This document shows, one piece after another, positions 4,601-27,682 of a stretch of DNA of 27,682 nt (positions within the stretch are counted from its first letter, which is position 1; the number at the start of each line of letters is the position of its first letter). The stretch lies in the IMG/VR virus record IMGVR_UViG_3300033064_000176, positions 1 through 27,682 of that record; one strand, written 5' to 3'. Under the pieces are notes generated by a model. It made no database searches, was not told the DNA's origin, and was given only the letters and a program-made list of their open reading frames with translations. Position numbers and translations under genes: made by a program. This DNA is from a virus.

Positions 4601-5513
4601 TGTTGCTGGCTGTTAGTCCTTGGACCAGAGCCTCTTCTTTGGTGGCTCCAGCCTTCAAGGCTGCCTGTGCTGCCTTACGACCAAACATCATCCATACCAA
4701 ACCATCACTGACAGAGTTAAAAACTCCACCCTCAAGGGTTCCTTTGATCTTTGCAGTGAAGACATCATCATTCCGATCAGTGGCAAGACCAAATAGGAAT
4801 GAGTTGTGAAGGGGGTTGTCTTCTGGTACGAGGTTTTGAACCATTTCCGAGAAGTTACCATCCGTTGGTTTGGTGAGGATGAAGTCTGCCACAGCCCCTG
4901 GAACAAGTCCAGAAGCCACTGCACCACGTACTCCAACGCCTTTGGTACCCAGCTGCACAAACGCCTTCGGAAGGGCCTTGCTGGCCGCCCTGGTGAGGAC
5001 TATGAGCTGCCCTAGTTTGGCTGCGGTTTGACCAAGTTGTGTCTTAGGCTTATCCACACCAAAAGAATAAGCAGCAGCCGTGTAACGATTGTTCCAAGGA
5101 TCCTCAGTAGGAGCCACGGGTTTTCCAACAACCTTGGATGCACCTACCTTCAGAATGTCTCCAACAAGATCAGCCGTGTTAAGGGTGTCTTCGGCTATGC
5201 CAACAAGCGATGTGGCTGAGACCCTATTCTGTTCAGTGATTGCTTCTGATACACCTTTGAGTCCTAAGGCATCAGCAGCCATTTTAATTGGCTTTGTGAT
5301 AGGATTCACTGCCTCAATAATGCTCTTACCAACCACACCCTTGCCAAGGTCAGCTACTGCTTTGATTGGGTTAACACTTTTTGGGGTGTTCAGCTTTTGC
5401 TGTGCCTGTTGTTCAACAACTGCTTGTTGGGCTGCTTGTTCCTTTTCGTAAGTGTCGTTGGTGTAGTATGGATCCAGAGGTCCAGGTCCCACAGGACCAG
5501 AGAATTGTGGCAT
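1602..5513 (-). CDS. 16: Large internal virion (ejection core) protein, T7 gp16-like
   Basis: This 1303-residue protein matches T7 gp16 (1318 residues) in size and position, directly before the fibre gene. In T7-like phages this core protein is ejected first and helps form a channel across the cell envelope for DNA entry. Visible features are an Ala/Gln-rich N-terminal helix, long polar helical segments, a central region with MLSGPITHLRNIFGN, and FIPFVRTPANLLGYGLEHVPG-like sequence, a pattern I recognise from gp16-type proteins. A hydrophobic Met/Ala-rich stretch lies near residues 950-975. The T7 gp16 N-terminal transglycosylase domain is absent; it is found in the preceding gene instead. 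I chose ATG at 5513-5511. The frame also allows a TTG at 5537, which lacks a better ribosome site. A hairpin lies just upstream (5549-5578). Confidence 0.87.
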   Translation of the reverse strand: MPQFSGPVGPGPLDPYYTNDTYEKEQAAQQAVVEQQAQQKLNTPKSVNPIKAVADLGKGVVGKSIIEAVNPITKPIKMAADALGLKGVSEAITEQNRVSATSLVGIAEDTLNTADLVGDILKVGASKVVGKPVAPTEDPWNNRYTAAAYSFGVDKPKTQLGQTAAKLGQLIVLTRAASKALPKAFVQLGTKGVGVRGAVASGLVPGAVADFILTKPTDGNFSEMVQNLVPEDNPLHNSFLFGLATDRNDDVFTAKIKGTLEGGVFNSVSDGLVWMMFGRKAAQAALKAGATKEEALVQGLTASNTAMKAADKAYSSDVTKEATRWGEVHQLEIEELSKMESRLISQEEAYRAANLSDTDPQVIAVREALSDVRMNQAELDERIVNGYDPGDAKSHLPQDASANVKEGDPVRAIADQHESFSGNTGKIGGFGDTMPTAAVRGATHMMTDAQYRIQNITGNAQEVVRNISSRFDLQQAAAAARDSVDGIIRSAAEELDNFRSALGGDINEQNMLSMMKQAELIDPENTTGRLLSKKGILVTKALIRDTALQINDLATNAVALREAGQLPGNSIDRLVDRMVTLLDFHKYTAYKTGSTLQIFQRVVGLGDDVLDEAKGAAKNELTTKEIRDWALRIKRLQRSSDPKAADELDAMIRAMVLAGGDPTKMVTFWGNARSIGFKQAINGMYQSMLSGPITHLRNIFGNTYSLIERPFSAFVVGDKAVKASAVAGMHGIVTGFQDAWKVALTTLKTGDSVNFNHKFVVDDFETRAMLEQMNLAARTDSEKMAAGFLENSYNFQNNPWLSWPSRSLMAGDDFFKSLAARYRMNSKAMYEAKLHSVDEASEKDLFDMYLKQYSKGIDPQTGRINDPDLLAYAERITFQQDPGSFISTIANAIDQSPGGVGKLFIPFVRTPANLLGYGLEHVPGIHKVMRSLGDTLEAAEKSGDLLLVAEIKGRQATGAMLVGSMVTMAMMTDITGNVPYDKLERQAWKEEGRPAMSIKIGNKWVSYAALEPVNSMLSIVADAMRLVKIGGADAASNIMRQLAYSITAGYTDKSFLAGLSSIGQLLDPKNMNDPGMMNLAWNTTNNFLPYAGARRALSNSLEPYLKETRSELDRVLVAALPGYGKDVPSVTSWITGQKLNSIGGGVWNAVSPIRLYDVNDNFVVKTMTDIKFPSNAILKTGQNGIQLEPEQRERLAQLLFKSGLNKKLDTLFHDKAWQAMAKQWKGRPITSEMVLGEKEDAPPHIKKVKEFVSAYKNQALAVLFQEDPTYRAQVFQTRDQEIRAYQGDFRPSNLEQLKQFAKQ

Positions 5514-12858: not shown

Positions 12859-13857
12859 TCAGACGTTACGGAAAGCACCAGCAACGCCAACGCGCACAGC
12901 GCCAGCACCATAGGCCAGACGGCCCACGATCACGTCGCCTTGATAAATCACCTTGGTGTCAGCACCAGTGGTCTGAACCGAAGGACCGATGGCTTCCACA
13001 ACGCCGGCAGCGTCACGATGGAAGATCAGGCCGCAGGAGTTGGTGAAGTTGGAAGCAATGCCGTAGGAGTTGTTCTCACCGGTCACAGCAGCAGCATCAA
13101 TGGCAGCGCCAGTGGCGGAACCATACTTGCCCAGGAAGGGGATGTTGTTGCTCTTCTTGATGCTGATACCAGCGATCTCATAGAGACCATCGCCGGAGCT
13201 AAGGTTACCACCAGAGGCACCATAGTCGCGGTTCAGGATGTTGGTGTCAACCTGGCTGATCAGGGCGTAGTACTGACGGGGGGACAGTACGGCCACACGA
13301 CCATCCTTAGGAGCAGCCACTTCATCAAGACGGGCAGCAGCTTCAAAGAAGCCGTCAACCAGGGCTTGGGCATCATACTCCTTGGAGGCACCCAGGTTGA
13401 TCTGGAAACCACCAGGCTCGCCGGTTACGGCAGCGGTAGCAGAGGAGGCCTTGTCCAGAACGCGGAAGATGCGACGATCATAGAACTCAGCAAGGCTCTG
13501 GCCGATCTGACGGGCGATAGGGCCACGGATGTCATACTGGCTCATCACCTCATCAAGGCTGTCCACAAAGGCACTGGCGATCAGCAGATCGTCCATTGCG
13601 ATGGTGGTCTCAGCAGCAGGAGGATTGCCAGCACCCAGGATGGGCACACCAGCAACGTGGTAACCAGCCGAGATACGACCGGTGTGAATGAACTGGGCTT
13701 GCTTACCACCACGGAGGGTCCGGTTCATGACCAGATCCTTAGCAATGGTGCTGTTACGGAAGGCTTCGTAGACTTCGCCAGTGAACAGCTTCAGGAAAAG
13801 AGCGGTAGTACTGCCAGCTTTGTTAGCCTGGCCAAGATAGGTAGGTGTTGCAGACAT
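12859..13857 (-). CDS. 10: Major capsid protein, T7 gp10-like (HK97 fold)
   Basis: A 332-residue protein in the gp10 position, after the scaffold and before tubular A. T7 gp10A has 345 residues. Family features are the N-terminal helix FLKLFTGEVYEAF, then GGKQAQFIHTGRISAGYHVAG (E-loop region), IAMDDLLIASAFVDSLDE, and the C-terminal HRDAAGVVEAIGP and YQGDVIVGRLAYGAGAVRVG strands. It should adopt the HK97 fold and form the icosahedral shell. The gene stands alone between a 200-bp structured leader and a strong terminator, as expected for the most highly expressed gene. Codons are strikingly uniform and GC-ending compared with its neighbours (many GCC, ACC, ATC), in line with high expression. 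No T7-like gp10B frameshift extension is evident, because the terminator follows directly. Confidence 0.95.
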   Translation of the reverse strand: MSATPTYLGQANKAGSTTALFLKLFTGEVYEAFRNSTIAKDLVMNRTLRGGKQAQFIHTGRISAGYHVAGVPILGAGNPPAAETTIAMDDLLIASAFVDSLDEVMSQYDIRGPIARQIGQSLAEFYDRRIFRVLDKASSATAAVTGEPGGFQINLGASKEYDAQALVDGFFEAAARLDEVAAPKDGRVAVLSPRQYYALISQVDTNILNRDYGASGGNLSSGDGLYEIAGISIKKSNNIPFLGKYGSATGAAIDAAAVTGENNSYGIASNFTNSCGLIFHRDAAGVVEAIGPSVQTTGADTKVIYQGDVIVGRLAYGAGAVRVGVAGAFRNV

Positions 13858-14057
13858 GAGTCTTAGTAGGTAAGAGTGTTATGACAGTTCCCAAACGTTT
13901 GGTTTTTCCTAGGAGGTAGTATTCGGTTGTTAGGCAATAGTCCCGTCATATTGGGTGTCCACCGCAGCGGGCCAATACTCCAGCTAGCTGGGTTTTTTAA
14001 TGAGGTCCCGACCTCAAGAGAAAGGGGGTCCGACACTGAGGTGCCCCCAATCTGTTC
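13858..14057 (-). promoter_or_regulatory. Structured leader between scaffold and capsid genes, likely late promoter region
   Basis: This 200-bp stretch holds no credible gene. It contains five inverted repeats: a GGGGG/CCCCC stem at 14024-14048; TGAGGTC-CC-GACCTCA at 14001-14016; the 12-bp palindrome CCAGCTAGCTGG at 13980-13991; arms TATTGG/CCAATA at 13949-13977 enclosing CCGCAGCGG; and the 12-bp palindrome CCAAACGTTTGG at 13891-13902. Position, just before the capsid gene, matches T7 promoter phi10, so a phage-polymerase promoter is expected here. One candidate is ATTGGGGGCACC, reading on the minus strand from 14051. No purine-rich ribosome site is evident within 15 bp of the capsid ATG. The promoter role is inferred. 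Confidence 0.6.
14024..14048 (-). terminator. Possible weak terminator or attenuator after the scaffold gene
   Basis: On the minus strand GGGGG (14048-14044) can pair with CCCCC (14028-14024) across a 15-nt loop that holds a further CAC/GTG pairing. The 3' arm is followed by TTTCTCTT. This is 9 bp after the scaffold stop. The uridine run is interrupted and the stem short, so termination would be partial; it could equally be a 5'-end mRNA structure of the late capsid transcript. Confidence 0.35.
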
Positions 14058-14912
14058 TTACATCAAATCGTTGCTGTTTGCAAGCTTCTGCTCTACGTCA
14101 TAGCGATAGGCAGGGTCATTGCGGTAGCGTGGATCTGAAATAGCTCGTGCAAGTTCAGCCTGGCTACGGAAACCCGGTTCTGGGCGAGGTGCGCGATTGC
14201 CACTGACACGCTTACCTTCAAAGCCCACAGCATCCTTGAAACGATTGTTAAGGGCCTGCACAGCAAAGAAGATAGCATCTTTGTTGCCACTGTTCACCAC
14301 ATTGTCATAGGCTGCGACCTCCTCAGGTTTGAGGTTATCAGCAGCCCATGCAAGGGTATCATTGTAAGCATCTTGCCCGCCCACGGATGTGACGATGGAC
14401 TGGGCATCAGTATCAGACAAAGGTTGTGCCTTTGCCACTGGGTTACTCTTTTGGAGTTCCAGGTAAGCATCAATGAGTTGCTCTGATGGCATCTCCTTCA
14501 GCTTCTGGATGGTCTCCGGTTTCAGAGCATTATCATTGGAGTAGTATTCCTCCGAAGCATCCTTCAGAAATTGAACTCTTTCAGTAACCGGTGATTCGGT
14601 TTCTGATTCAGTTTCTTCAGAAGATTCTTCGGTAGTCTCCTCTGTTGATTCCTCATCTGTTGGTTCAGATTCCTTGGATCCAAGCTTTTTCTGTAGTTCC
14701 AGATAAGCCTTTTCAAGGTCTTCAGCAGACTTGAACTTTCCAGCATACTGACCAGCATCCTCGGAATCAGTTTGACTTCGACGATACTTTTCTTCATTTG
14801 CTGCTTCTTGGGCCTCAATAATCTTGCTACCAGTCTCCAGGTTCTTTGTTTCTGTTGCCTCACGGGCAGCAGTCACATCTGGATCAGTACCATCAAAAAT
14901 GATTTCAGACAT
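14058..14912 (-). CDS. 9: Capsid assembly scaffolding protein, T7 gp9-like
   Basis: A 284-residue, strongly acidic protein located between the portal and capsid genes like T7 gp9 (307 residues). A disordered Glu/Ser/Thr-rich block (ESEPTDEESTEETTEESS-like) lies around residues 79-108. Helical segments follow, with LKEMPSEQLIDAYLELQ. The conserved C-terminus has FRSQAELARAISDPRYRNDPAYR, then DVEQKLANS, a pattern I recognise from T7-like scaffolds, where the C-terminal helix-turn-helix binds capsid protein. The protein guides procapsid assembly and leaves before DNA packaging. Its ATG follows the preceding small gene's stop by 6 bp, and its own stop opens the long capsid leader. Confidence 0.9.
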   Translation of the reverse strand: MSEIIFDGTDPDVTAAREATETKNLETGSKIIEAQEAANEEKYRRSQTDSEDAGQYAGKFKSAEDLEKAYLELQKKLGSKESEPTDEESTEETTEESSEETESETESPVTERVQFLKDASEEYYSNDNALKPETIQKLKEMPSEQLIDAYLELQKSNPVAKAQPLSDTDAQSIVTSVGGQDAYNDTLAWAADNLKPEEVAAYDNVVNSGNKDAIFFAVQALNNRFKDAVGFEGKRVSGNRAPRPEPGFRSQAELARAISDPRYRNDPAYRYDVEQKLANSNDLM

Positions 14913-19894: not shown

Positions 19895-20726
19895 TGGTTG
19901 GTGGCATCCACAGGATGGGTTCTTTGGTTGTGAAGTTGTACTCATTGGGTCGAAGGATCCTGGCAAGTCTAGCATTGCGGAGGGCATCCTCCTCGGTAAG
20001 ACCTGCCTTCTCATAAGCACCTCTGATCACTTCCCACTCCTTCCCCTGTGCCTCTGCAAGCAGCTTCTCAGCACCCTTGGCACCAATACCAGGCACACCC
20101 TTGTAGCCGTCCACAGGGTCTCCTGTAAGGCACTGGGTCCAGAACCAGTAGTCGGCCTGCGCTTTGGTGGTGATGACCTCCTCCTTGCCGTTGAACAGAC
20201 GACAAGCAATCTGTTTCATGTCCTTGTCAGGACTGATCAGAACGAAATGGGATGGATCATTGTGGCAATGAATACCAAGAGCATCATCAGCCTCAAGGAG
20301 AGGTATGGTGACCGTAGGGTAATGCTGTCGGCACCAATCAAGCAACCTGCGATAGCCAACAGGCTTACGCTTTGTTCGGTTGCCTTTGTACTCGGGGTCA
20401 ACAGTCTTCCGAAAGTTCTTGGTGTCAGAGAAATACAAGGTGACATTGGTGGTGTCAAACTGTGTCCTGAGGTTGCTGATGTCCTGTTCAAAGGTTCGGA
20501 TGACTTCCTTCAGGTTGCTCACAATGGTGATAACATCCTGTCCCCAATCAAGTTCCTCCTCGTTGACCTGACAGGAACGGTAAGCGTAAAAGTCAGCATC
20601 AACCCTAAGGTCAATGGCAGTCTGCCCACGATGTCCCTTCTTTTGCTTCGGAGGCAAGGGGTACCCGGAGGTTGTAGTACTCTCCTGCTTGGACGATTGC
20701 CCATTCGAGGTTGAACTTGAAGTCAT
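19887..20726 (-). CDS. 6: 5'-3' exonuclease, T7 gp6-like (FEN family)
   Basis: From ATG 20726 the protein has 279 residues; T7 gp6 has 300. Motifs of the flap-endonuclease family are present: VDAD (Asp43, Asp45), EADD (Glu145, Asp147, Asp148), SPDKD (Asp167, Asp169), and the helix-three-turn-helix with TGDPVDGYKGVPGIGAKGAE (Asp203, Asp206). A basic arch segment (KGNRTKRKPVGYRR) is also seen. It should remove RNA primers, degrade host DNA to feed nucleotide pools and aid recombination. The true start is uncertain. The domain begins at about residue 40, while the only in-frame ATG (20726) lies 116 bp inside the polymerase gene and adds a Ser/Thr/Lys-rich tail. An ATT codon at 20615 overlaps the polymerase stop (ATTGA). 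Confidence 0.9.
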   Translation of the reverse strand: MTSSSTSNGQSSKQESTTTSGYPLPPKQKKGHRGQTAIDLRVDADFYAYRSCQVNEEELDWGQDVITIVSNLKEVIRTFEQDISNLRTQFDTTNVTLYFSDTKNFRKTVDPEYKGNRTKRKPVGYRRLLDWCRQHYPTVTIPLLEADDALGIHCHNDPSHFVLISPDKDMKQIACRLFNGKEEVITTKAQADYWFWTQCLTGDPVDGYKGVPGIGAKGAEKLLAEAQGKEWEVIRGAYEKAGLTEEDALRNARLARILRPNEYNFTTKEPILWMPPTNE

Positions 20727-25501: not shown

Positions 25502-27682
25502 TTAGCAGAAGAAGTAGGGGGAAGCTTGAACATCATTGATGTCCAAGGTGTTTTTCATGATGCTATCATCAAAGGTAGCACCAATCTGATCAGCCCAATT
25601 CCGAAGAACAGGCTCACTGTAAATTGACACGAACTCATTCCTGACTGCCTTAGCAATCAGATCCATGTCACAGGAACGTCCTAACACACAGTCATGGATG
25701 ACAGTGAAGGGTCCTTCCCAGTTGGCAAACACACAGTGAAGAAGAGCAGCATCCAGGGAATGGATCACGTTAGGAGCCGAAGCACTAACATGGTGATCAA
25801 TATCCACTGGTCCTGGATCTTGTTTGGCTATGTTTGCGGTGAGTGTTGTGCCAAGCAACTTGGTGGCAATACGTTCTGTTTGTGTGATCCTGAGGTTTTG
25901 AACCACAGGGAATCCAGAAGGTGTCACCCATTCAATAACCTCCTTGCCAGACTTGATCTGCTCCTTCACTGCCCCTTGGATGAAGTTCATACAAAGCACA
26001 GGACCAGAGAAGATCTCCTTAACACCGAAGTCATAGATTGCCTTGACAATCTCACTCAGTTCACCTTTCTCAAGGGTAACACCCTTAAGCTCTTGTCGGA
26101 TGTAATCACGAGCAGAGTGACGAGTAACACCATAGGGTGTGGTCATCACGGTCCTCTTGGTTACCTTCCTGGTGATGTGTTGATGAAGGTGTTCTGGTAT
26201 CTTCTCCTTGGCCTTGTTAGCCACAATCAGATAGCCATCAGATGGCTTAGCTGTTGGAACCACATTGACCATCTCAGCAGCCGTGCGGTCAAGCGTAAGG
26301 GCAGAGAGATGTTGAAGACCAGAACACGTAGCATCAACAGCAATAGGAAGACCAGAAGTCTTCTGATCACCAACAATCACACAGTGGTAATACTCAAGAC
26401 ACGAAGCCAAGAAACACCAGGGTTCCTCTGCTACTGACCACTCATTGATTGTCCCCATTGGATCATTGGCAATCATACTGATTAGGTGGTGATTGGCATA
26501 CGTCCAAGTGAGACGATCATCCATCGTAGCCTTATCCAACCCGTAGGTAGTAGCAACCTGAAAGGCTAACCACCACTGAACCACTAAGCCTTCTTCCTCA
26601 AAGAGAAACAAACTCTTTTCAAAATCAGTCCCCTGTGGGCTGAGGCTTGTGGGAATTGGATAGCATCTCCCACGGTAGTCAAACGACCATGGAATCCAAA
26701 ACGGATCATCCCGATACTTGTTCGCAACAAACAAGCACTCTATTGTTCGGTAGTTATTCTGTGCCAGAAACGAGTTCCTATCTTCGATCTCAGTACGAGC
26801 CTTCCGATAGGTTAGTTTGTCCTCCTCAGGAGCAGTCTCCCAAGGCTCTGGCTTTGGCGGTGGAGGTGTTGGATCCTCCGCTCGGAACTTACCCACACTG
26901 ATGCGGTGTTCCATACAGAAATTAGCTACGCTCAGAACAATAGGGTTGATCCGATACGGCACCCGTTGCAGGGTGTTCAGCATGGCGAGGGCCTTGCTGT
27001 TCCGTAAGACGGTAGACCCCCCATAGTCTCGGACCCGTACCAACCGACTCAGTTTGCGAATGTCGTTGGTGAGGTAGCCACCTGAGTGCTGGCCTGTCCA
27101 GTCGTTTGGCTCACACAGCATGGGCCACAGACATGCACAGTAGTTCTGAGCCTGCGCCAGGAGGGCCTCCTGTGCCCTTAGGAACTCAGGCTGGTAGGTC
27201 ATGACGGTGCTCTGCCTTTTCTGCTTGTAGGTCACCTTGGAGCCCACCCAGCCCGTTGCCCTAGCAAGACGGTCAACCAGCCACGCTCCTACCTTATGAC
27301 GGATCGTAGGGGTCCACAGCTGCCACTCAATGTCGTTCTTCCTCATGGCAGCACGATACCGCTGAACCTTGTACCCATAGCCCTTGTGGGCATGGATGTT
27401 GTCAGCAGTATTGCGAAACAAATCCTTGTTCTGTTTCTCAAAGCTGTCAAGCATCAGCTGCTGCTCAATCCTTACCCCAATCATGGTGGTGATACTGACG
27501 TAAGTAGGATCAGCAGAACCACGACACTTCCCAAGACCATCAATGAGTGTCTTGGCAGTGATGACACCTAACACGTAAGGATCTGTCTCCTTGATCAGGA
27601 TCACAGCCTCAGCATAGGCAGCAGCCTGTCCATTGTCGATGGATGTGATCTTCTCACCAATCTCCTTAGCAATGGCACCAAG
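25502..27682 (-). CDS. 1: T7-type single-subunit RNA polymerase (5' end outside window)
   Basis: 726 codons are visible and the frame is open to the right edge, so the N-terminus is missing (T7 gp1: 883 residues). A GTG at 27604 is unlikely to be the start, because the upstream codons (IAKEIGEKITSIDNGQ) still read like family sequence. Numbering from the first visible codon, catalytic residues are Asp450 (VDATCSGLQH, T7 Asp537), Lys509 and Tyr517 (KRTVMTTPYG, T7 Lys631, Tyr639), and His663/Asp664 (VIHDCV, T7 His811/Asp812). DYRGRCYPIP (335-344) matches the T7 DWRGRVYAV segment. A Pro-rich PTPPPPKPEPW linker lies near 272-282. The C-terminus ends YFFC, in place of the FAFA foot of T7. The enzyme should transcribe middle and late genes. 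Confidence 0.97.
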   Translation of the reverse strand, partial: LGAIAKEIGEKITSIDNGQAAAYAEAVILIKETDPYVLGVITAKTLIDGLGKCRGSADPTYVSITTMIGVRIEQQLMLDSFEKQNKDLFRNTADNIHAHKGYGYKVQRYRAAMRKNDIEWQLWTPTIRHKVGAWLVDRLARATGWVGSKVTYKQKRQSTVMTYQPEFLRAQEALLAQAQNYCACLWPMLCEPNDWTGQHSGGYLTNDIRKLSRLVRVRDYGGSTVLRNSKALAMLNTLQRVPYRINPIVLSVANFCMEHRISVGKFRAEDPTPPPPKPEPWETAPEEDKLTYRKARTEIEDRNSFLAQNNYRTIECLFVANKYRDDPFWIPWSFDYRGRCYPIPTSLSPQGTDFEKSLFLFEEEGLVVQWWLAFQVATTYGLDKATMDDRLTWTYANHHLISMIANDPMGTINEWSVAEEPWCFLASCLEYYHCVIVGDQKTSGLPIAVDATCSGLQHLSALTLDRTAAEMVNVVPTAKPSDGYLIVANKAKEKIPEHLHQHITRKVTKRTVMTTPYGVTRHSARDYIRQELKGVTLEKGELSEIVKAIYDFGVKEIFSGPVLCMNFIQGAVKEQIKSGKEVIEWVTPSGFPVVQNLRITQTERIATKLLGTTLTANIAKQDPGPVDIDHHVSASAPNVIHSLDAALLHCVFANWEGPFTVIHDCVLGRSCDMDLIAKAVRNEFVSIYSEPVLRNWADQIGATFDDSIMKNTLDINDVQASPYFFC

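Follow-up and report, generated by a model that had tools for sequence, protein, structure and literature searches.

Palindromic stem-loops in the capsid mRNA leader of cyanopodovirus-like T7-like phages: self-complementary loops that may allow capsid mRNAs to pair

The question raised by this locus is why the 200 bases in front of a major capsid gene should be so largely occupied by inverted repeats. The window, by which we mean the whole stretch of 27,682 nucleotides analysed (IMG/VR virus record IMGVR_UViG_3300033064_000176), carries its genes on the minus strand in a T7-like order, namely RNA polymerase (25502–27604), primase/helicase, DNA polymerase, portal, scaffold, capsid and tail proteins. 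Among the phage records searched, the nearest match to the capsid protein is that of Synechococcus phage S-CBP2 (68.7 % identity), and the host is therefore likely to be a cyanobacterium. A 14-pair terminator-like hairpin lies 3′ of the capsid gene (12839–12809, minus strand), and the interval between the scaffold and capsid genes is best read as the 5′ untranslated leader of the mRNA for the major capsid protein, in a T7-like phage of cyanopodovirus-like type. The features, in the direction of the genes, are these.

14058–14912, minus strand: scaffold gene, upstream of the capsid gene (PHROG 1052 head assembly, E-value 8.4e-63)
13858–14057, minus strand: whole capsid mRNA leader (best reading), the 200-base gap between scaffold and capsid genes; same architecture in relatives
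14024–14048, minus strand: hairpin H1, GGGGG-CACCTCAGTGTCGGA-CCCCC, with conserved loop and variable stem (by eye and by counts over 301 leaders)
14002–14015, minus strand: hairpin H2, GAGGTCGGGACCTC; GAGG/CCTC or GTGG/CCAC in relatives (alignment, by eye)
13993–13998, minus strand: run of As ahead of P1, in which five alignment columns are A in all 55 leaders
13980–13991, minus strand: P1, CCAGCTAGCTGG, perfect 12-nt palindrome; hairpin with self-complementary centre CTAG
13949–13977, minus strand: UNCG hairpin with outer helix UAUUGG/CCAAUA and inner helix CCGC-UGCG-GUGG; the internal loop, on one side only, is conserved
13907–13914, minus strand: 8-nt palindrome TCCTAGGA, between the UNCG hairpin and P3
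13891–13902, minus strand: P3, CCAAACGTTTGG, perfect 12-nt palindrome; hairpin with self-complementary centre ACGT, the centre 39 nt before the start codon
12859–13857, minus strand: major capsid protein gene, ATG at 13857–13855 (PHROG 267 major head protein, E-value 7.7e-76)

A sequence-only reading of this interval had counted five inverted repeats, two of them perfect 12-nt palindromes, and both counts hold: the palindromes are P3 and P1, and H1, H2 and the hairpin at 13949–13977 complete the five. It had also described a repeated layout of A-run, CC and palindrome, which survives in part. There is a minus-strand run of six As ahead of P1 and one of five ahead of P3, but the CC is no separate element, being the first two letters of the palindrome, and the invariance of the As before P1 is not matched at P3, where the run is absent in several relatives (by eye). 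When 20,000 Markov leaders of the same composition were generated, two 12-nt palindromes were present in 13 and one in 606. The whole window contains four 12-nt palindromes where 6.4 are expected, and such palindromes are at chance across five whole genomes plus the window; those of the leader thus reflect no genome-wide habit.

Relatives were collected with capsid-protein queries of four phage types, the best 80 loci being taken for each query out of 463, 583, 597 and 138 relatives, and 12 named cyanophages were also read. Further loci were found by scanning viral contigs with a pattern for the UNCG hairpin, and counts that draw on them apply among the matches listed. These pattern-found loci are included in the P3 position tallies, the wider test of 241 hairpins and the two control hairpin sets of the RNAcofold comparison; they are excluded from the palindrome count, the stem test of 244 leaders, the tree, the close-pair comparison, the P1 dyad tally, the wobble tally, the pairing with the start-codon tract, the H1 tally of 301 leaders and the P3 sets used for sliding the dyad and for RNAcofold. 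Six of 438 loci, having no usable start codon, were dropped from the P3 position tally, and 18 of 326 capsid-based loci, with less than 150 nt upstream, from the test of hairpins chosen by stem. The alignment rests on 74 of the 80 loci found with the window query, which gave 54 distinct leaders and, with the window, 55; left out were L003, L021, L041, L059 and L072 (too little upstream sequence) and L078 (another gene there).

A perfect palindrome of at least 10 nt is present in 240 of 246 distinct 200-nt capsid leaders, and 113 leaders have two or more. Control segments at the same loci have one in 41/239 cases inside the capsid gene (two or more in 6/239) and in 28/236 downstream (two or more in 1/236). 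The six leaders without a 10-nt palindrome are those of L078, L219, L380 (phage P60), L418, L420 and L424, and among the 12 named cyanophages the leaders of 11 contain one, P60 being the exception. The last 200 nt before the capsid gene of T7, HTVC134P, HTVC119P, CRP-125 and P-SCSP1a yielded a 10-nt palindrome in HTVC119P only, and that one is composed of A and T alone. The centre of P3 lies mostly 34–46 nt upstream of the start codon. Within the window clade, 55 of 56 distinct leaders have a P1, taken as the best dyad that follows the A-run, and nine alleles occur; other clades have equivalents of P1 and P3 elsewhere in the leader. We note that the site of the 8-nt palindrome also seems, by eye in the alignment, to be symmetric with changed letters across relatives (TCCTAGGA, ATCCGGAT, AGGATCCT, TTGCGCAA), and that L078 carries, at 148–555 and directly before its capsid gene, a gene whose motif AGLFEGEGSI suggests a homing endonuclease of LAGLIDADG type; this locus lacks the palindromic leader.

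The symmetry of the loops was examined in hairpins not selected for it. Hairpins at 30–52 nt before the start codon were picked by stem alone (at least four pairs, G·U allowed), the middle four nucleotides being ignored. Such a hairpin is found at the place of P3 in 203 of 244 distinct leaders, and the four ignored nucleotides are self-complementary in 189 of the 203; as distinct hairpins, 72 of 83 have a palindromic centre. Of the others, 41 of the 244 leaders lack a stem-chosen hairpin at that place, and in 14 more the hairpin chosen there is asymmetric at its centre; many of these leaders are P60- and Syn5-like. A wider set that includes the pattern-found loci (among the matches listed) has palindromic centres in 205/241, against 194/3041 in shuffles. 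Sliding the dyad along the same sequences, by which their relatedness is kept, gave a mean of 6.8 % and a maximum of 18 % palindromic, against the 72/83 at P3, and an internal control, the CACATG-N6-CATGTG hairpin of 29 leaders, has 15 loop sequences, none of them self-complementary. Twelve centres occur among the 72 distinct palindromic hairpins (ACGT 14, GATC 13, GCGC 13, GTAC 10, CATG, TCGA, CCGG and CGCG 4 each, CTAG 2, AGCT 2, GGCC 1 and TGCA 1), and these are every four-letter palindrome containing G and C; the four centres made of A and T only are absent at P3 in these hairpins, and one AATT occurs at P2. The Syn5-like element GGU-N6-GCC has 27 matches, of which 22 are strict palindromes (GCTAGC 15, ACCGGT 4, GCATGC 2, ACGCGT 1), four have a palindromic central four with a wobble at position 3 (GCCGGT 3, GCGCGT 1) and one is different (GGTGCT), a pattern to be expected of an RNA stem whose loop is paired.

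Neighbouring bases of a loop are unable to pair with each other in the same hairpin. Self-complementary loops are therefore not accounted for by a plain hairpin, and either the pairing partner is a second molecule or the symmetry has some other cause than pairing. Ordinary 5′ stabilising hairpins might nevertheless be all that is present if the symmetry of their loops were a by-product of template switching, which can in principle perfect palindromes. Stabilisation of mRNA by hairpins is established and the T7 capsid leader has one, and the sequence-only reading, which listed mRNA-stabilising hairpins among its suggestions, pointed in the right direction as far as mRNA hairpins are concerned while leaving the self-complementary loops unexplained. 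We consider this account unlikely, since the neighbouring hairpins keep asymmetric loops (the 15 loops of the CACATG hairpin, and the UNCG hairpin), the outer arms retain U·G pairs that copying would tend to erase, and a monomeric hairpin gives no reason for complementary adjacent loop bases in 189/203 stem-chosen hairpins when slid dyads lack the complementarity.

The centre has changed at least 52 times on a FastTree phylogeny of 189 capsid genes, a figure that is not a count of point mutations because the leaders recombine. For a closer view, leaders with flanks at least 90 % identical were compared, the partner not being selected for symmetry; this gave 1389 ordered pairs, 23 of them gapped. 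At P3 a palindrome at the homologous centre is kept in 1341 of the 1366 ungapped ordered pairs, with zero, two or four differences. The 25 exceptions trace (by eye) to 12 partners, nine of which are register shifts or misalignments of other palindromes, and the other three (L231, L237 and L254) have the odd-length palindrome TTCTAGGCTAGAA. The palindrome is kept at P2 in 72/72 ungapped pairs (77 in all) and at P1 in 866/880 (884 in all), where the exceptions shown are 12-letter against 14-letter alleles. L063 and L032 differ between H2 and the start codon only at the centres of P1 (TTCGAA against TCATGA) and P3 (GCGC against GTAC), and L309 and L333, whose capsid genes are 99.6 % identical, have AGGATCCT and AAGCGCTT respectively. 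Comparison of these sequences shows the centres staying Watson–Crick palindromic through paired changes. The same interval of relatives had been proposed as a check by the sequence-only reading, with a lack of conserved symmetry or spacing, together with a lack of transcript ends, as the outcome that would speak against it; for symmetry and position the opposite was found, the palindromes keeping both while their letters change. A higher rate of variation in the centre (0.095) than in the flanks (0.056) is not taken as proof, as 50 of the 88 differing pairs represent one swap and the figures cover leaders with palindromic centres only.

The symmetry could also serve double-stranded DNA, where a dimeric protein might bind it, a cruciform might form, a resolvase might act on it or gene modules might be joined by recombination. 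Such perfect dyads typify DNA sites, and phages that are otherwise close differ in their leaders and in the modules upstream of these (H1, a T-arm-like hairpin, tRNA), which look exchanged. The letters, however, change freely between near-identical phages and differ between P1 and P3 of one phage, and a sequence so free to change argues against a protein site; moreover the position is tied to the capsid start codon, and outside the leaders the genomes have no more 12-nt palindromes than chance would give. A further point against DNA comes from the outer arms. Among 86 distinct dyads picked by their central 8 nt only, with positions 5–8 free, U·G pairs (5′ U, 3′ G) number 4, 11 and 19 at positions 5, 6 and 7, G·U pairs 0, 1 and 1, and A·C or C·A 0, 0 and 6; the three positions together have 34 U·G, 2 G·U and 6 A·C or C·A, an excess of U·G of which a purine-rich 3′ arm may be a partial cause. 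At position 8 the excess of U·G is gone (12 against 15 A·C or C·A), and the outer arms contain further mismatches, among them A·G with 12 cases at position 6. At positions 5–7 U·G outnumbers A·C (36 against 6 with G·U counted in), which speaks for the mRNA strand, being what sense-strand RNA helices would favour, and is not predicted by DNA symmetry. P1 has wobbles too, in L042 (position 3, G·U) and in L022 (position 6, U·G), and a distant group of 11 leaders (among the pattern matches listed) has at the place of P3 the hairpin CCCGGCGTCGGG, with G·U at position 2. None of the 83 stem-chosen hairpins departs from a palindromic centre by wobble alone, the 11 that are not palindromic carrying a true mismatch. 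An earlier tally of U·G in 16/16 cases at positions 4–6 is not counted here, since the choice of hairpins had allowed only Watson–Crick and G·U pairs at those positions. On balance we regard a role as double-stranded DNA as improbable.

There is far less to be said for a promoter or operator of the phage RNA polymerase, which the sequence-only reading had suggested. The T7 phi10 promoter, before gene 10, sits at the same gene junction, and ATTGGGGGCACC at 14040–14051 resembles the Syn5 promoter ATTGGGCACCCGTAA. The G run of ATTGGGGGCACC nevertheless belongs to the H1 stem, which is variable between clades, and as a promoter this candidate was rejected, having 28 occurrences in the window (up to three mismatches) against 28.5 expected, with the exact copy inside H1. 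The 15-nt Syn5 promoter, which may not be this phage's own, has no match in the leader with up to three mismatches, the letters of the palindromes differ between near-identical phages, and Syn5 itself carries its promoter only at 4929 and 44797, with the capsid gene at 20017. Syn5 is reported to have two promoters, one of which transcribes over 37 kb (PMC3950665). Equally implausible is a terminator or roadblock for antisense transcription, also among the earlier suggestions and formed by a palindrome followed by five or six Ts on the plus strand: P1 with its T6 is listed as terminator-like on that strand and the A-run before P1 is invariant in 55 leaders, but the 13 such sites of the scanned stretch do not exceed chance (14.7 expected), the stem counted for P1 has five pairs, P3 lacks a plus-strand T-run in several relatives (by eye) and the symmetry of the loops would be left unexplained.

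The reading that we prefer, with a probability of about 0.6, is a structured RNA leader whose stem-loops have self-complementary loops through which capsid mRNAs could pair with each other. The apical loops of P1 and P3, or of their equivalents elsewhere in the leader of other clades, would be the self-complementary elements; identical loops of two capsid transcripts would pair by loop–loop kissing, possibly converting to a duplex of 12–16 bp, and capsid mRNAs would in consequence homodimerise or form chains. A four-nt loop wholly engaged in kissing is sterically tight. Kissing between P1 and P3 of one molecule was considered as a rule and rejected: their centres are identical in 3/110 leaders with exactly two palindromes, where about 4–5 would be expected from marginal frequencies (an estimate), and pairing of P1 with P3 is therefore not the rule. 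Since neither of the two Syn5 promoters is close to the capsid gene, the leader would probably work on a long transcript, through its stability, processing or translation. We infer, with less confidence than the pairing itself, that the leader acts after transcription, where it might protect and insulate the capsid part of a long late transcript, tune its translation, or both.

Folding of the single leader is unremarkable, and the case therefore rests on the relatives. The 200-nt leader alone shows no extra stability against shuffles (z −0.22 on the minus strand, −0.42 on the plus strand), and its predicted minimum-energy fold lacks the P3 hairpin. The median RNAcofold gain of a dimer over two monomers, a model energy without kissing terms, is −16.2 kcal/mol for 72 P3 segments, against −3.0 kcal/mol for 19 control hairpins and −9.3 kcal/mol for 104 UNCG hairpins (both sets taking in pattern matches among those listed). 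In some relatives, though not in the window, the 3′ arm of P3 might pair instead with the start-codon tract and so form a switch. Pairing of this arm and the letters that follow with the tract reaches a shuffle fraction of 0.05 or less in 18 of 72 distinct hairpins (6/7 of the P60 type, 6/12 S-CBP4, 3/20 window, 3/29 P-SSP7 and 0/4 other), and the P3 of the window itself shows no significant pairing with the tract in the shuffle test; significant in only these 18, the tract pairing is kept as a secondary feature.

The rest of the leader is built of recurring modules, the typical order in relatives being a module at the 5′ border, then a single palindrome or two, and a hairpin whose loop is of UNCG type. 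RNAalifold on 55 leaders placed 10 of its 13 predicted pairs in the UNCG hairpin, eight of these 10 being changed on both sides; this prediction, made on the MAFFT alignment, also recovered part of P1 but missed P3, whose copies are not in register in that alignment. No other part of the leader is as widespread as the UNCG hairpin. Its pattern precedes a same-strand capsid gene by 32–123 nt at 105 of 117 new loci (among the matches listed); the other 12 loci showed no capsid gene, 11 of them having the match no more than about 300 nt from the end of the sequence examined and one (L188) having it beside unrelated genes. With its fixed internal loop this hairpin looks like a general marker of T7-like capsid leaders. 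By eye, P-SCSP1a and phages of Pelagibacter and Roseobacter also have a UNCG-like hairpin.

The 5′ border of 301 leaders is formed by H1 in 142, by a T-arm-like motif without H1 in 126 (eight of them with a tRNA), by a tRNA alone in two and by none of these in 31; ARAGORN places a tRNA there in 10/301. These modules (the hairpin with loop CACCUCAGAGUCGGA, the tRNA T-arm-like hairpin and the tRNA) seem to be interchangeable, and they may mark RNA processing. An Rfam search gave no match in the window at the gathering threshold, the best match in the leader below it being PreQ1 (12.9 bits, E-value 3.6), and on 10 relatives (E-value up to 0.5) it gave Glutamine-II riboswitches and a tRNA upstream and nothing for the palindromes. 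The Glutamine-II riboswitches (RF01704) lie upstream of the capsid leader at L093:1120–1173, L084:1082–1146 and L089:64–120, about 250–300 and 310–375 nt from the capsid start in P-SSP7 and S-CBP4, and farther away in NATL1A-7.

The leader of T7 gene 10 (slg10), with its stabilising hairpin, is likewise a hairpin-bearing leader at the same gene junction, but it holds a promoter and has no palindrome of 10 nt or more. The guanidine-II riboswitch resembles the present stem-loops in its short kissing tetraloops; those loops, however, are fixed as ACGR, and the palindromes described here have no match in Rfam. One source (PMC7357161) names this riboswitch among dimerising RNAs, and describes the HIV-1 dimerisation initiation site as a six-nt palindrome in which compensatory changes restore dimerisation, mRNA–mRNA pairing by a palindromic kissing loop in the oskar 3′UTR, and multimerisation of phi29 prohead RNA through loop–loop pairs. 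The HIV-1 site shares the stem with a self-complementary apical loop, whereas here the element lies in the mRNA leader of a DNA phage, has a centre of four nucleotides (six in the Syn5-like form), often occurs twice in a leader and has many alleles, and the dimer is predicted from sequence. The oskar element is in a eukaryotic 3′UTR, and no sequence relation to the phage leaders is claimed; phi29 prohead RNA differs in that its loop pairs are not palindromic and that it is a separate packaging RNA and no mRNA leader. A search of open-licence PMC papers, by titles and the openings of abstracts, showed no description of such palindromic capsid leaders. Palindromic kissing loops as such are known, and what would be new is a palindromic phage capsid leader with predicted dimerisation.

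It is conceivable, if rather speculative, that the diversifying loops act as a self-tag by which only transcripts of the same phage type dimerise, and that P3, switching between a hairpin or dimer and pairing with the start-codon tract, makes capsid translation respond to the concentration of capsid mRNA. The phages concerned are related to those of abundant ocean and freshwater cyanobacteria, and the retention of loop symmetry through dozens of changes resembles a natural compensatory-mutation experiment for RNA–RNA pairing. If the dimerisation reading is right, these leaders would represent a natural mRNA homodimer in phages, tied to the major late protein of phages whose capsid gene has no promoter of its own (as checked in Syn5).
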